This document shows, one piece after another, positions 55,089-60,368 of a stretch of DNA of 64,000 nucleotides. The DNA comes from Xanthomarina spongicola. Lineage in GTDB: Bacteria; Bacteroidota; Bacteroidia; Flavobacteriales; Flavobacteriaceae. The notes beneath the pieces are model-generated. The model was not told where the DNA came from. It ran no database searches and saw only the letters and a program-made list of their open reading frames with translations. Position 1 is the stretch's first letter, and the number at the start of each line of letters is the position of its first letter. The DNA lies in the NCBI RefSeq assembly GCF_003148645.1, contig NZ_QGGP01000002.1, positions 5,001 to 69,000 on the forward strand. The letters are read 5' to 3'. A program made the translations under genes and the position numbers.

Positions 55089-57047
55089 TTATTTATGCTT
55101 TAATACTAATAATGAGTTTTTTTGCACATCTATAATAGTTCCCATAAACATTTTTAAACTTTCATAGTAATCTGGATTATAAATAGCTTCTTTAAAATTA
55201 AATTTAAAATACATCAAAATAGAGTTATCTACTACTTTTGTTGTAAAAATCAATAACCCCTTATTGTTTGGGAGGCCTATATTTAAATCTTCTGGAGTTT
55301 CAAGTACATCATAGTTTTCGTTTAAATCTATCTTCAAAGTATATAAATAAGTGTCTTTAAAGCCAAAATCTATTGGATAAGTTCTCTCTTGTAGCTTAAA
55401 TGGGTTTTCGTCCATTAATTTAAAGAGGAAGGGGTTAATATATAAATTACCGCCAATATTTTCTGCTTGATATTCTATTTCAAATTCTTCTAAAAACTCA
55501 TAACTAGTTTTATCCTCACTAGATACTGTATGGTTTAAAAATGTAATAGAATGATACTTTTCTTTATACTTTTTTAGATAATCGATTTTATTATCATAGT
55601 ATTTCTTTTTTATTGGTAATGCATGATAACCTGTTGTATTGGCATTGATTTTTCCTAATAGAATGTCATCGTCTTCTAATTTCAAATCTACTCTGTAATG
55701 CGTAGTTGTTATGTTTGTTGGGTTTAAATCTATCCAATACCCATTGGTTTTGAAATCTAATAAATGGCCATATTGATTTAAGCATCTAAAAGGGAGTTGT
55801 CCAAATGCTAAATATTTATCTGTGGCATCTAATAAATATGTATTATCATTAATTTTGATTTGCACTATTAAGTAATTAAAATCAGAGATAACAGGATATA
55901 ATTTAGTAGGAAGACCATTATCTCTTGTAGATATTAATATTGGTGTAACATCAAAATCCTGACTTTCTAATAAGTTATAAAGTAGCATGTTAATTTCAGA
56001 CACTTTTCCAGACTTATTATTAATTAGATCCTTTACAGACACATCATTCCAAATGCTGTACTTTTCATTCCAAGTATAATTAGTTTGAACATATTTATAT
56101 ATGTCTGTTGCTTTTTTTAAAACATCCAATTCATCAGTAATATTACGAGGAAGTAATTCCTTTGTATAGCTATTATTTCCTAATTGTTTACCTAGGTTTT
56201 TATCAGATTTAATTTCGGAATGGACAGTTTTCCATGTTTTTGTGTAATTATTTGTTAACCCTCTAAAATCTTTAAATGTTTTTAACTCGTATTCTAGTCT
56301 TGATAAATAATTCTCTTTAGTAGTCATAAAATCTTCCATAATAAAAGCTGGAATATCTTTCATTCTATAAATGGTATTAATACAATTTGCTTTACCTCCA
56401 TTACCTACTTCTAAACAAGTTTTTTCAATAGATTCTTCCATATTTGTTAGATTTAAGTATCCAACTAGTCTAATGTTATATTCCCAATTACCTGGAATAC
56501 TTGTGTTATATTCTGAATAGAGTTTAGGGATATCTTCTTGAAAATCCCATTCTTTATATTTAAACATAAAGGGAGAATCTATCATATAGCTATAATTAAT
56601 AACAGAACCTTCTTTTAAGTTTGGGAAAGTGAATTTTATAATAGAATTATTTTCGTTATAAACCTCTTCAATAATATCATTTTCATTTAATTGAGTTTTT
56701 GTAACCAGACCATTTTCAACATTATAGGTTGTTGCCATAATGTTTGTTACTTTTTCTCTACGTCTATCTTTATTATATAGATAAATCTGTATAGTGGCTT
56801 TGTTGAACCCTTGTTTATTGAATATTTTAATTTTTTTCTTTATTTCGGTTTTTAGCCTAAAATCTCTATCATCTACATAGCTGTTTCCATATTCATAAAG
56901 TACTAAAGCATTTGCAGTAGAATCCTTTTCATAAAAATTAGTTTCCAAATCTGCGCTTGTAACAGTGAAATTTTCGGAATTAAAAACTGATTGCGAATAA
57001 ATGTTTATTGAGAGTAAAATGGCGCAAATTAAGTAGGGTTTTTTCAT
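55089..57047 (-). CDS. DUF3857/transglutaminase-fold exported protein
   Basis: 652 aa. Signal peptide about 1-18, DUF3857 domain about 55-225 (FNKQGFNKATIQIYLYNKDRR, EGSVINYSYMIDSPF), a transglutaminase-like core about 310-420 (IYKYVQTNYTWNEKY, INMLLYNLLESQDFDVTPILISTRD, TYLLDATDKYLAFG) and a DUF3858-like C-terminal part. In the core, the position of the catalytic Cys appears to be Val (NNKSGKVSEINML), and the His of the triad is not evident; only the Asp is kept. So it is probably not an active transglutaminase. ATGA overlap with the nuclease gene upstream. Confidence 0.85.
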   Translation of the reverse strand: MKKPYLICAILLSINIYSQSVFNSENFTVTSADLETNFYEKDSTANALVLYEYGNSYVDDRDFRLKTEIKKKIKIFNKQGFNKATIQIYLYNKDRRREKVTNIMATTYNVENGLVTKTQLNENDIIEEVYNENNSIIKFTFPNLKEGSVINYSYMIDSPFMFKYKEWDFQEDIPKLYSEYNTSIPGNWEYNIRLVGYLNLTNMEESIEKTCLEVGNGGKANCINTIYRMKDIPAFIMEDFMTTKENYLSRLEYELKTFKDFRGLTNNYTKTWKTVHSEIKSDKNLGKQLGNNSYTKELLPRNITDELDVLKKATDIYKYVQTNYTWNEKYSIWNDVSVKDLINNKSGKVSEINMLLYNLLESQDFDVTPILISTRDNGLPTKLYPVISDFNYLIVQIKINDNTYLLDATDKYLAFGQLPFRCLNQYGHLLDFKTNGYWIDLNPTNITTTHYRVDLKLEDDDILLGKINANTTGYHALPIKKKYYDNKIDYLKKYKEKYHSITFLNHTVSSEDKTSYEFLEEFEIEYQAENIGGNLYINPFLFKLMDENPFKLQERTYPIDFGFKDTYLYTLKIDLNENYDVLETPEDLNIGLPNNKGLLIFTTKVVDNSILMYFKFNFKEAIYNPDYYESLKMFMGTIIDVQKNSLLVLKHK

Positions 57048-58414
57048 TGATTTATAAGTGGAATAATTTTGAGGTTTTTATTTCGCCTTAAATAACTTTG
57101 AATAATATGCTGAGCATCTCTATTGTTTTCCATAGGTGTAATTAGAGATTCTAACACATCTGTATTTGTTATTTGATAATTAAGATTTGCAAAGCCAAAA
57201 CCAGAAAATACGCCGTTTTTTATTAATATAACACTGCGTTCGTCGACGTCTCTTCCTTTATCAATTATAGCCATGTTTAAATTACTATATCTATTTTTTT
57301 CTATAAGTTTATTAACTCGTTGGTTGTAAATCTCTATTTCTTCTTTATTAATACATGCGCCATTGCATTGTTTTAAGTTATAATTAAAACAACTATTTTT
57401 TGTAGGATACAAGCCAGTAAGTTTCTGGCACAAATTAAATTCTTCTACTATTTTAAAAAGAAACTGTTTAGCACTATTTCTCGTACTAAATGTTGTAATA
57501 GCACTTTTTCTACCATCGGCTTTATCAATTGTTAAATTAATATATCCATTTTCATCTTTAAAACTATATAAGGCATGAGTAAAAATGTTTCTTCGAAGAG
57601 CTCTGTTAAAAATAGGTTTATTACGTTTTATTTCTTCGCTCTCTTTCAATAATGCAATTAATTCATTTCCTGTAGCTTCATAAGTAACAGCTGCTGTTTG
57701 TAATTGAATTTTTTTTGATTTAGAATTAGTATTAGAAAAATGTTGACTGAGTCTATTCTTGATGTTTTTGCTTTTACCTATGTAGATAATTTCTCCTTTA
57801 TCATTATGAATATAATAAACACCAGTAGTATGAGGAAGATTGTTTAATATTTGCTTTAAACTAGGTTCCATTTTGAAAGTTGGTTCTACTACTATAGCAT
57901 CTTGTACAATCACTTTTTTAATGTCCTTAGCAAGTAGCATTTTAAAAAGTTTTATAGTAGCCAATGCATCTCCATTAGCTCTATGTCTGTCGCTTACTGG
58001 AATACCTAATGATCTAGCTAATTTTCCTAAACTATAGGATGCTTGATCTGGAATAAGTGTTTTAGAAAGCGAAACTGTACATAAGGTTTTTCTTTTATAT
58101 GGGAATCCTAATCGTTTGAATTCAGTTCTTAATATTCTGTAGTCAAATTCGGCATTATGAGCAACAATCACACAATCTTCGGTAATTTCAATAATACGTT
58201 TAGCTACTTCATAGAATTTAGGGGCATTTTTAAGCATATTGCTATTAATACCTGTAAGATTTACAACAAAAGGTTGAATGTCTCTCTCAGGATTAACCAG
58301 ACTAATAAATTGATCGACTACTTGATGCCCATCAAATTTATAAATAGCTATTTCTGTAATGCCTTCTTCGTTATACTTTCCACCTGTGGTTTCTATGTCG
58401 ACTATTGCGTAAAT
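57044..58414 (-). CDS. DnaQ-type 3'-5' exonuclease fused to a GIY-YIG (UvrC-like) domain, ATT start
   Basis: 456 aa if read from the ATT codon at 58412-58414; the first ATG in frame is at 58237. The exonuclease domain (1-165) needs the upstream part: IYAIVDIETTGG gives ExoI Asp6 and Glu8, HNAEFDYR gives ExoII Asp91, HRANGDA gives ExoIII His144/Asp149. The GIY-YIG domain follows (GVYYIH 198-203, IYIGKSKNIKNRL from 210), then a Cys-containing UvrC-like part. Homologues usually begin MYAI(V/L)DIETTGG, so ATT stands where ATG is expected. An in-frame stop lies six codons upstream. Role: likely DNA repair or polymerase-associated nuclease. Confidence 0.8.
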   Translation of the reverse strand: MYAIVDIETTGGKYNEEGITEIAIYKFDGHQVVDQFISLVNPERDIQPFVVNLTGINSNMLKNAPKFYEVAKRIIEITEDCVIVAHNAEFDYRILRTEFKRLGFPYKRKTLCTVSLSKTLIPDQASYSLGKLARSLGIPVSDRHRANGDALATIKLFKMLLAKDIKKVIVQDAIVVEPTFKMEPSLKQILNNLPHTTGVYYIHNDKGEIIYIGKSKNIKNRLSQHFSNTNSKSKKIQLQTAAVTYEATGNELIALLKESEEIKRNKPIFNRALRRNIFTHALYSFKDENGYINLTIDKADGRKSAITTFSTRNSAKQFLFKIVEEFNLCQKLTGLYPTKNSCFNYNLKQCNGACINKEEIEIYNQRVNKLIEKNRYSNLNMAIIDKGRDVDERSVILIKNGVFSGFGFANLNYQITNTDVLESLITPMENNRDAQHIIQSYLRRNKNLKIIPLINQ

Positions 58415-58468
58415 AAGATATTCGTTTATTTAAGTCGTAAACTGAAAAAATACGACTATAACTGTTTG

Positions 58469-59128
58469 TTAATTATAATTTCGTTCTCCAAAGATACTAC
58501 TTCCAACACGAATCATGGTACTACCACAATCAATTGCTAATTGATAATCACCACTCATTCCCATAGAAATAATATTCATTTCTGGATGTATAGTTTTAAG
58601 CTGATTAAAAACGTGTTTTAGTTTAAAAAATTCGCTTTTAATTTGCTCTTGGTTGTCTGTAAAGGTTGCCATCCCCATCACACCAACCACGTTGATGTTT
58701 TTTAATTCTGAAAATTCTGTTGCTTGTAAAATCTTTGAAGCATCGCTTGCTGTCATTCCAAATTTAGAATCTTCTGAAGCTATTTTTATTTGAAGTAAGC
58801 AATCTATAACTCTATCATGCTTATTTGCTTGTTTATTTATTTCTTTAAGCGTTTTAAAATTTTCAACTCCATGAATTAAACTTACAAACGAAGCCATGTA
58901 TTTTACTTTATTTCGTTGTACATGACCAATCATATGCCATTTAACATCTTTTGGCATTTGCTCATGCTTTTCAGTCATTTCCTGGATTTTGTTTTCCCCA
59001 AAAACACGCTGTCCAGCTTGGTAAGCTTCCAAAAGGTCGCTAACAGGTTTAGTTTTAGAAACAGCAACAAGTGTTACATGTTGTGGTAAGGTAGATTTTA
59101 TGTTTTGTAAGTTTTGTTTTATGGACAT
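58469..59128 (-). CDS. YggS family pyridoxal-phosphate-binding protein
   Basis: 219 aa from the ATG at 59128 (MSIKQNLQNIKSTLP), 1 bp after the DUF1015 stop. PLP lysine candidate Lys25 in VAVSKTKP; RVFGENKIQEM, DVKWHMIGHVQRNK, LLQIKIASEDSKFGM and SMGMSGDYQLAIDCGSTMIRVGSSIFG are family signatures. YggS/PROSC proteins keep vitamin B6 homeostasis. Likely co-transcribed with the DUF1015 gene. Confidence 0.95.
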   Translation of the reverse strand: MSIKQNLQNIKSTLPQHVTLVAVSKTKPVSDLLEAYQAGQRVFGENKIQEMTEKHEQMPKDVKWHMIGHVQRNKVKYMASFVSLIHGVENFKTLKEINKQANKHDRVIDCLLQIKIASEDSKFGMTASDASKILQATEFSELKNINVVGVMGMATFTDNQEQIKSEFFKLKHVFNQLKTIHPEMNIISMGMSGDYQLAIDCGSTMIRVGSSIFGERNYN

Positions 59129-59129
59129 T

Positions 59130-60368
59130 TTAAAATTCGTAAATAGTGACACCACTTCTTAGTTTTGGCTCAATATAAGTGCTTTTTGGAGGCATTTTTA
59201 AACCATCCTCTGCTATCTGTTTTAGTTCTTCTACTAATACAGGAACCATAACAAAACCAACTTTAAATTCACCACTATCTACACTACTTTTAATATTTAA
59301 AATATCTTTTTTTCCATTGATATAAGTAATTCTTTGATCGTTTCTTAAATCTTCAATTCCTAAAATAGGGTTTAGAATGGTTTTATATAGAATTTGAGAA
59401 TCTAAACCATCTAAGGATGTTTCAATATTATAAATGGTTTTTCGTAAGTATAGAGAATAGAAATCGCCATCTAAATACATACTGAAATGATGCTTCTTTG
59501 TTGGTTGATATGGTATTTTCCCTCTATTTTCAATTCGATAGAAAGTATCCAGCTGAATTAAAAATTCTTCTTTAGTTAACCCGTTTAAATCTTTAATCAA
59601 TCTATTAAAAGCATGAATTTGTAAATCGGATTCAGGTATTAAATAACTCATAAAAAAATTATAATCCTCATCTCCATGATGGTCAGGATTTGCATCTTTT
59701 AAATCTTTATAAAGTAAATATGAAGAAGCAGATCGATGATGTCCATCTGCAATATAAATTGTTGGAATATTATTGAATTCTTTCTGTATAATTTCTATTG
59801 TTTCGGGGTTGTCAACCTTCCATAGATAATGTGTGTCTCTATAGGTAGTAGTAAACTCAAATTCGGCTCTTTCTTTATGTGTTTCGTTTATTATTGAATC
59901 TATTACTGCATTATCTGGATAGGTTAGGAGTACAGGTTCTGCATTAAAACCAACAGTTTTTAAGTAATCTTTAAATACAATTTCCCTATAAGCAATGGTG
60001 TCTTCATGTTTTTTAATAACATTGTTTTCGTAATCAAGAGCACTTGCAGCTGCAATAATGCCATTAAATACTTGATGTTCTCTATCTACAATTTTATAGA
60101 TATAATAACAAGGGTTTTCATCTTGAGCAAAAATATTATCTTCTATAAATTCTAAATATCTGTTTCTAACTAGGCTATATCTTGCTTCACCAGAAATTTC
60201 TTTGTCGAATCTATATCCAGGATTTACAATTTGTAAAAATGAAAACGGATTATCTCTAAGTCTGGATTCAAGCTGTTCCTTTGTATAGCTTTGGTATGAT
60301 CTAGCTGCCACAAGACTTACTTTGTCTCGTGTAGGACGTACTGCTTTAAAAGGAATTATTTTAGCCAT
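59130..60368 (-). CDS. DUF1015 family protein
   Basis: 412 aa, cytoplasmic. Family features are IIPFKAVRPTRDKVSLVAARSYQSY at the start, NPFSFLQIVNPG, IVDREHQVFNGIIAA, TIYIADGHHRSASSYLLY and DLRNDQRITYING. The HHR segment suggests a metal-dependent or phosphotransfer activity but no reaction is established for this Bacteroidota branch. In these genomes it often lies near serine-synthesis genes (serA/serC), which are not in this window. Upstream of YggS with 1 bp between. Confidence 0.9.
   Translation of the reverse strand: MAKIIPFKAVRPTRDKVSLVAARSYQSYTKEQLESRLRDNPFSFLQIVNPGYRFDKEISGEARYSLVRNRYLEFIEDNIFAQDENPCYYIYKIVDREHQVFNGIIAAASALDYENNVIKKHEDTIAYREIVFKDYLKTVGFNAEPVLLTYPDNAVIDSIINETHKERAEFEFTTTYRDTHYLWKVDNPETIEIIQKEFNNIPTIYIADGHHRSASSYLLYKDLKDANPDHHGDEDYNFFMSYLIPESDLQIHAFNRLIKDLNGLTKEEFLIQLDTFYRIENRGKIPYQPTKKHHFSMYLDGDFYSLYLRKTIYNIETSLDGLDSQILYKTILNPILGIEDLRNDQRITYINGKKDILNIKSSVDSGEFKVGFVMVPVLVEELKQIAEDGLKMPPKSTYIEPKLRSGVTIYEF

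Follow-up and report, generated by a model that had tools for sequence, protein, structure and literature searches.

A probable weak ATT start codon, free of Shine–Dalgarno support and cleared of competing starts, on an exonuclease–GIY-YIG nuclease gene of Flavobacteriaceae

A 64,000-nucleotide stretch of the Xanthomarina spongicola genome (contig NZ_QGGP01000002.1, positions 5,001–69,000; hereafter the window) carries on its minus strand, at 57044–58414, a gene for a DnaQ-type (DEDDh) exonuclease joined to a GIY-YIG endonuclease. Our comparison of sequences indicates that this gene very probably begins at a genuine but weak ATT codon (58412–58414) that works without a Shine–Dalgarno (SD) sequence, that competing start codons around it have been purged, and that the arrangement probably caps synthesis of the nuclease. 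We conclude that the ATT is an inefficient start which would function without an SD sequence because few better start codons lie nearby.

Read on the minus strand, an in-frame TAA stop (58432–58430) is followed by ATA AAC GAA TAT CTT, then by the ATT (58414–58412) and by TAC GCA ATA GTC GAC ATA GAA ACC, and the frame stays open from the ATT until the TGA at 57046–57044, giving 456 codons in total with the ATT as codon 1. No ATG, GTG or TTG was found in this codon reading between the in-frame stop and the ExoI motif (codons D6-I7-E8, 58391–58399), whose D6 and E8 are present in 190/190 family loci; the reading confirms what a preliminary description of the window had claimed. The first in-frame ATG encodes Met60 (58235–58237). 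In the X. spongicola genome itself, the initiation region from −30 to +27 (58388–58444) contains no ATG, TTG or GTG, whichever frame is read.

Matches to the protein were found in 8/8 genomes of the genus, in 116/120 of the family (100/100 of the good-quality ones; E ≤ 1e-60) and in 77/149 at class level (E up to 1e-50), tallies that include any match, paralogues and exonuclease-only relatives too. The 208 family loci taken were reduced to 190 distinct ones by dropping four that lack the motif (L087, L219, L238 and L239) and 14 further loci that duplicated the first 600 bases of another or had too short an upstream sequence; the paralogues L011 and L122 were excluded from the 190-locus counts. 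Codon 1 is ATT in 65 of these Flavobacteriaceae loci, TTG in 60, ATG in 41, ATC in 10, GTG in nine and ATA in two, and the remaining three have AAC, AAT or TTA with a TTG one codon earlier; CTG, ACG, AAG and AGG were found at this position in 0/190. ATT, ATC or ATA stands at codon 1 with no canonical codon back to the preceding stop in 73 loci (the ATT type below), and four more have a canonical codon upstream. None of the 73 has a canonical codon downstream until codon 32 at the earliest, beyond the catalytic D6 and E8. The ATT type occurs in about 30 genera of the family, and ATT itself in 8/8 genomes of the genus.

These counts decide among the explanations that the preliminary description had left side by side. 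That 58412 was misread or misassembled has a practically negligible probability: nothing was found in favour, and the same codon in the rest of the genus and in dozens of separate assemblies refutes it. A start-loss mutation, after which only a truncated, exonuclease-dead protein would be made from the ATG at 58237, is ruled out as a recent event by the same conservation across many separate assemblies and is very improbable overall: Met60 is indeed kept in 189/190 loci, as that reading would want, but it is equally conserved in orthologues with canonical starts and so is a structural residue. Moreover, residues 2–59 are the best conserved part of the protein (mean top-residue frequency 0.898 versus 0.826, 0.675 and 0.629 further on), and the invariant D6 and E8 lie within the first strand (residues 2–10) of the predicted fold. 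The option of a true ATT start is thus the one that the orthologues support.

Ribosomes might also start ahead of the ATT, either on a different near-cognate codon or in another frame followed by a frameshift. X. spongicola does have a second near-cognate codon, an in-frame ATA at 58427–58429, five codons before the ATT, and 28 of the 73 ATT-type loci carry a near-cognate codon upstream. However, the other 45 contain no in-frame ATT, ATC, ATA or CTG besides codon 1, a stop directly adjoins the ATT in L032 (with one codon between in 10 more loci), the sequence upstream of the start is not conserved, and no ATG occurs in any frame from −30 to −1 in 73/73 loci, which together make an upstream start very improbable. 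Because those 45 loci lack an alternative, codon 1 is, on this alignment, the start site shared among ATT-type loci.

Alignment with orthologues, the check proposed in the preliminary description, showed codon 1 to be weak in many relatives and interchangeable with TTG and GTG. On a FastTree tree built with the first 12 residues left out, the ATT-type state changes to or from other start types at least 24 times; because of this number of changes, weak starts are taken to turn over yet persist in the family. Outside Flavobacteriaceae, 23 of 30 loci were readable (seven were not parsed), with ATG or GTG at codon 1 in 16 and, in the other seven, a canonical codon between one and five positions before it; because all 23 have canonical starts, the ATT type is confined to Flavobacteriaceae within the sample examined. 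What the alignments add to the preliminary description is that the weak start is family-wide, is exchanged with TTG and GTG, and lies in a neighbourhood cleared of competing starts.

This clearing was apparent on both sides of codon 1. Codons 2–8 (58391–58411) include five under strong synonymous constraint in relatives: codons 2, 3, 4, 6 and 7 rank 2, 7, 18, 13 and 1 among 449 columns (109 loci), most other high ranks being serine columns, for which the measure is inflated by the two codon boxes. When the tree is taken into account, codon 2 has 15 synonymous changes versus 54 at the only other conserved tyrosine column, codon 7 shows 17 versus 42–72 at ten other isoleucine columns (the 42 being codon 4), and codon 6 shows 25 versus 28–53 at five other aspartate columns. 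TAT at codon 2 would create an out-of-frame ATG before GCN, and ATT at codon 7 would create an out-of-frame TTG before GAA. The constraint at codons 2 and 7 therefore likely reflects avoidance of out-of-frame starts, which explains these codons better than a regulatory motif TACGCAAT..GACATAGA downstream of the start, a candidate that we rejected. The preferences for GCA at codon 3, ATA at codon 4 and GAC at codon 6 are not accounted for by start avoidance; early codons in the X. spongicola genome lean the same way, more weakly.

In codons 2–9 of the 73 ATT-type loci, 0 ATG were observed versus 44.8 expected and 10 TTG versus 72.3 expected, the expectations coming from synonymous resampling, whereas five control windows over codons 13–52 lie near expectation (observed/expected 54/47.9, 94/94.1, 133/131.5, 26/33.0 and 125/121.6). 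The same codons hold three ATG versus 43.1 expected in the 69 loci starting with TTG or GTG and nine versus 23.2 expected in the 41 starting with ATG; on these raw counts, which are inflated by the relatedness of the loci, downstream ATG depletion is graded by start class. Upstream of the ATT-type starts, 0 ATG were found versus 21 in shuffles. Over the whole interval from −30 to +27, an ATG in any frame besides codon 1 occurs in 0/73 ATT-type, 6/69 TTG/GTG and 12/41 ATG loci, and any ATG, TTG or GTG in 14/73, 23/69 and 35/41, respectively. The constrained downstream element is present in 116/142 weak-start loci versus 14/41 ATG-start loci (raw counts). For comparison, 831 ATG-start genes of X. 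spongicola itself are mildly depleted of ATG downstream (165 versus 189.5 expected) and more strongly upstream (170 versus 305). An underrepresentation of AUG near starts in Bacteroidetes is described in an earlier report (PMC6847099).

The leader offers the ATT little conventional help. An SD-like sequence (AGGA, GGAG or GAGG within −18 to −4) was detected in 1/73 ATT-type loci, in which adenine is frequent at −11 (59/73) and −12 (57/73). The mean folding energy from −30 to +30 is −1.25 for the ATT type, −2.25 for TTG/GTG, −4.06 for ATG and −3.59 for the 831 ATG genes of X. spongicola, and the ATT type differs from the TTG/GTG and ATG classes with P values of 1.5e-6 and 6e-11 (Mann–Whitney, not tree-corrected). 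In X. spongicola, the ATT sits within a predicted weak hairpin at 58410–58432 (TAAATAA with TTATTTA); the mean folding energy of the relatives is weaker. Initiation in Flavobacterium johnsoniae has been reported to depend on adenines at −3, −6, −12 and −13, low structure and no nearby AUG, with the anti-SD masked (PMC9976891).

Upstream of the nuclease gene lies a minus-strand gene at 58469–59155, whose first start by mechanical rule is GTG, whose stop ends 54 nucleotides before the ATT, and which encodes a putative YggS-like protein binding pyridoxal phosphate. Ribosomes that finish yggS could reinitiate on the AUU, in which case nuclease output would follow that of yggS and a weak codon would suffice. 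A yggS-like gene end does precede the start in 172/190 loci by a crude motif match (71/73 ATT-type, 61/69 TTG/GTG and 33/41 ATG loci, and 4/4 and 3/3 of the remaining two groups), with a median gap of 24 nucleotides in the ATT/ATC/ATA class. The gap, however, is independent of the codon (median 24 for TTG/GTG and 31 for ATG), and it is 54 nucleotides in the window, so that we regard such coupling as possible but doubtful. Tandem TTTTAAC heptamers were seen in the yggS–nuclease gap of several genera (L027, L032, L034, L055, L067 and L153).

How a weak ATT would set the dose of the nuclease can be outlined as follows. From work in E. coli, AUU pairs poorly with the initiator tRNA and is rejected by initiation factor 3 (IF3); studies by Butler in 1987 and Sacerdot in 1996 are reported to have established this IF3 discrimination. 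The ATT would be read by the initiator tRNA as formyl-methionine, giving the N-terminal peptide formyl-MYAIVDIETTGG. In the absence of SD pairing in Flavobacteriaceae, the site would be set by a leader that is rich in A, has little structure for the most part and usually follows shortly after the end of yggS, with no better start codon within about 30 nucleotides. Poor pairing and IF3 rejection would let few ribosomes start, the nuclease would be scarce, and a low dose would limit the harm done by a dual nuclease in excess. We infer both the low synthesis and this damage-limiting reason, and IF3 sensitivity of the start is plausible. The reason would fit the enzyme, because a mycobacterial fusion of GIY-YIG and exonuclease domains has been proposed to degrade the damaged strand after nicking it (PMC1564403).

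The IF3 gene, infC, provides a parallel that the preliminary description had aptly drawn, since infC in the genus and the family likewise lacks ATG, GTG and TTG and has ATA at its start. No canonical start precedes the conserved N-terminus in 37/37 family loci (L098, at G000:C6:196715-197215, among them). Read by eye, the start codon is ATA in 36/37 and probably ATC in L149, in the context GCC/GTC ATA GCA ATA; automatic reading of 36 loci (one of the 37 was read by eye only, and L152, below the cut-off, was not used) gave ATA in 32, ATC in two, ACC in one and ACT in one, the odd calls being the codon preceding ATA except in L149. In the wider class, where 39 genomes matched, 29 loci were tried and five were unparsed, a canonical codon is likewise missing from 11/24 readable loci of Bacteroidia outside the family. 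With ATA and no canonical start on infC, synthesis of IF3 in the Flavobacteriaceae lineage appears to begin at just the sort of codon against which IF3 discriminates.

The nuclease gene and infC also stood out in the genome at large. A dicodon model was used to scan 1.25 Mb (40%) of the X. spongicola genome, comprising 1016 genes, for sequence that looks coding yet precedes the first ATG, GTG or TTG, a procedure sensitive only to a long coding stretch ahead of the first canonical start, and these two genes ranked first and second. The third-ranked and several lower hits (C3 and C12) look by eye like shadow frames of other genes, the hit at C2:169280 holds unread letters, also as judged by eye, and the fourth-ranked hit, C2:83639, is a frame break inside a longer gene rather than a non-AUG start. 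At this last place (G000:C2:82740-84220) a gene that looks thioredoxin-like by eye is split, frame 1 stopping where frame 0 continues, which is either a pseudogene or a sequencing error.

The parallel raises the question of whether the AUU start is a switch that ties nuclease output to free IF3, raising the enzyme when IF3 is limiting, as in stress, cold or ribosome imbalance. The ATA start of infC, from which IF3 levels are probably set by the same discrimination, and the position of the two genes at the top of the scan speak for such a switch; the presence of TTG or GTG at codon 1 in 69/190 loci and of ATG in 41 is better explained by a mere low set point, and the switch seems to us an unlikely, though conceivable, addition. 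Because ATT exchanges freely with TTG and GTG, a low set point is favoured over a dedicated IF3 switch. Of the low or regulated translation suggested in the preliminary description, the weak start is thus supported, while regulation would be a rival reading. A bolder form of the argument, which we put forward only tentatively, is that competition alone makes the AUU usable: selection would have removed nearly every better start within about 30 nucleotides on both sides and in any frame, and the nuclease and IF3 would be the main chromosomal genes under IF3 discrimination, so that the dose of a repair nuclease would be tied to initiation fidelity.

Several observations weigh against a purged, low-dose weak start. 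In phylogenetically independent pairs, the association of a weak start with the constrained element or with start-free surroundings was not significant (median P 0.06–0.63). The ATG depletion comes mostly from one site, the TAT+G of codon 2, and TTG or GTG is still present within −30 to +27 in the 14 ATT-type loci counted above. GAC stands at codon 6 (58397–58399) in 70/73 ATT-type loci, though GAT would make no competing start, and GTG alone is low in a control, codons 37–44, with 0 versus 8.5 expected. Adenine at −3 is not enriched (29/73 ATT-type loci versus 450/831 of the X. spongicola ATG genes). The trend towards an open leader fails in X. spongicola itself, where the start region has a folding energy of −5.3 and 79% of its ATG genes have equal or weaker structure. 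The surroundings of infC are less purged, with two ATG and 11 TTG or GTG from −30 to +27 over 36 loci. Lastly, the free substitution of ATT by TTG and GTG, codons that IF3 treats as canonical, weakens the case for any IF3-specific role.

The protein read from the ATT has two nuclease domains. Pfam places an RNase_T exonuclease domain (PF00929) at residues 4–157 (E 9.6e-34) and a GIY-YIG domain (PF01541) at residues 198–265 (57620–57823; E 1.5e-9). D6, E8, D91 and D149 are present in 190/190 family loci and H144 in 24/24, and we presume that these D, E, D, H and D residues form the DEDDh catalytic set. Among solved structures, the exonuclease domains of DinG (8zef) and PolC (2p1j) come nearest in sequence, as does, for the GIY-YIG part, the N-terminal domain of UvrC (1yd6, E 3.3e-9). 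A stretch of four cysteines (C329, C342, C350 and C354; 57353–57430) has a UvrC-like arrangement. UvrC proper was rejected as an identity: TIGR00194 scores 83 bits against a cut-off of 285, and the C-terminal EndoV-like nuclease and HhH domains of UvrC had no Pfam match in the 456 residues. Among NCBIfam PRK07883 DEDD exonuclease models the best score was 272 bits, below the curated cut-off of 495. The predicted model, from which the first-strand position of D6 and E8 was read, has a mean predicted local distance difference test score of 81 and a predicted template-modelling score of 0.55. A second DnaQ–GIY-YIG paralogue, about 40% identical, is found in many Flavobacteriaceae (L011 is the second copy in G001, and L122 is in G028); L011 has an ATG one codon ahead of its IYTIIDVETTG start. 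Downstream of the nuclease gene lies a gene for a protein of 652 amino acids (55089–57047, minus strand), whose ATG overlaps the nuclease stop in the sequence ATGA. No Rfam match was obtained at 56500–59500, and no tRNA gene was found in the 64-kb window.

Natural AUU starts on chromosomes have been established in few cases, and those of Staphylococcus aureus lean on strong SD pairing, so that an SD-free AUU start in some 30 genera would be a natural test of start choice by ribosomes where codon strength and context are the sole variables. A gene finder limited to ATG, GTG and TTG would cut the protein past the ExoI motif and present an apparently truncated, exonuclease-dead enzyme. No title or abstract on the start codon of this gene was found among the matches listed by our search, outside which most subscription papers lie.

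Among the closest known cases is infC, whose start in E. coli is AUU. Like infC of E. coli and S. aureus, the nuclease gene has an IF3-discriminated codon at a conserved position with no canonical alternative; unlike infC, it encodes no translation factor, so that no direct feedback loop would arise, its start has no SD sequence, and its codon interchanges with TTG, GTG and ATG. Binns and Masters reportedly found in 2002 that synthesis of E. coli pcnB is limited by an AUU start. That gene likewise encodes an enzyme whose AUU start limits synthesis, as would presumably hold for the nuclease, but it is a different enzyme in a different phylum, and the nuclease start is conserved across a family and has no SD sequence. 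In S. aureus, one report describes extended SD motifs at infC (AUA), cvfC1 (AUU) and ccpN (AUA); in poor medium the non-canonical starts of cvfC1, ccpN and citZ reached about 10% of the expression seen with AUG, and in rich medium that of ccpN reached as much as 30% (PMC13009471). The nuclease resembles cvfC1 and ccpN in having a conserved non-canonical start and, probably, lowered expression, and differs from them in that its loci, 1/73 of which have an SD-like sequence, do not share the extended motif. As for the enzyme, DnaQ–GIY-YIG fusions of Mycobacterium and others, relatives of Cho and UvrC, set the same 3'–5' exonuclease ahead of a Cho/UvrC-type GIY-YIG domain; the report on them covers actinobacterial and betaproteobacterial fusions and does not mention Bacteroidetes by that term (PMC1564403). 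Natural AUU starts are therefore already known, and what is new here is a family-wide, SD-free, start-purged case on a nuclease gene.

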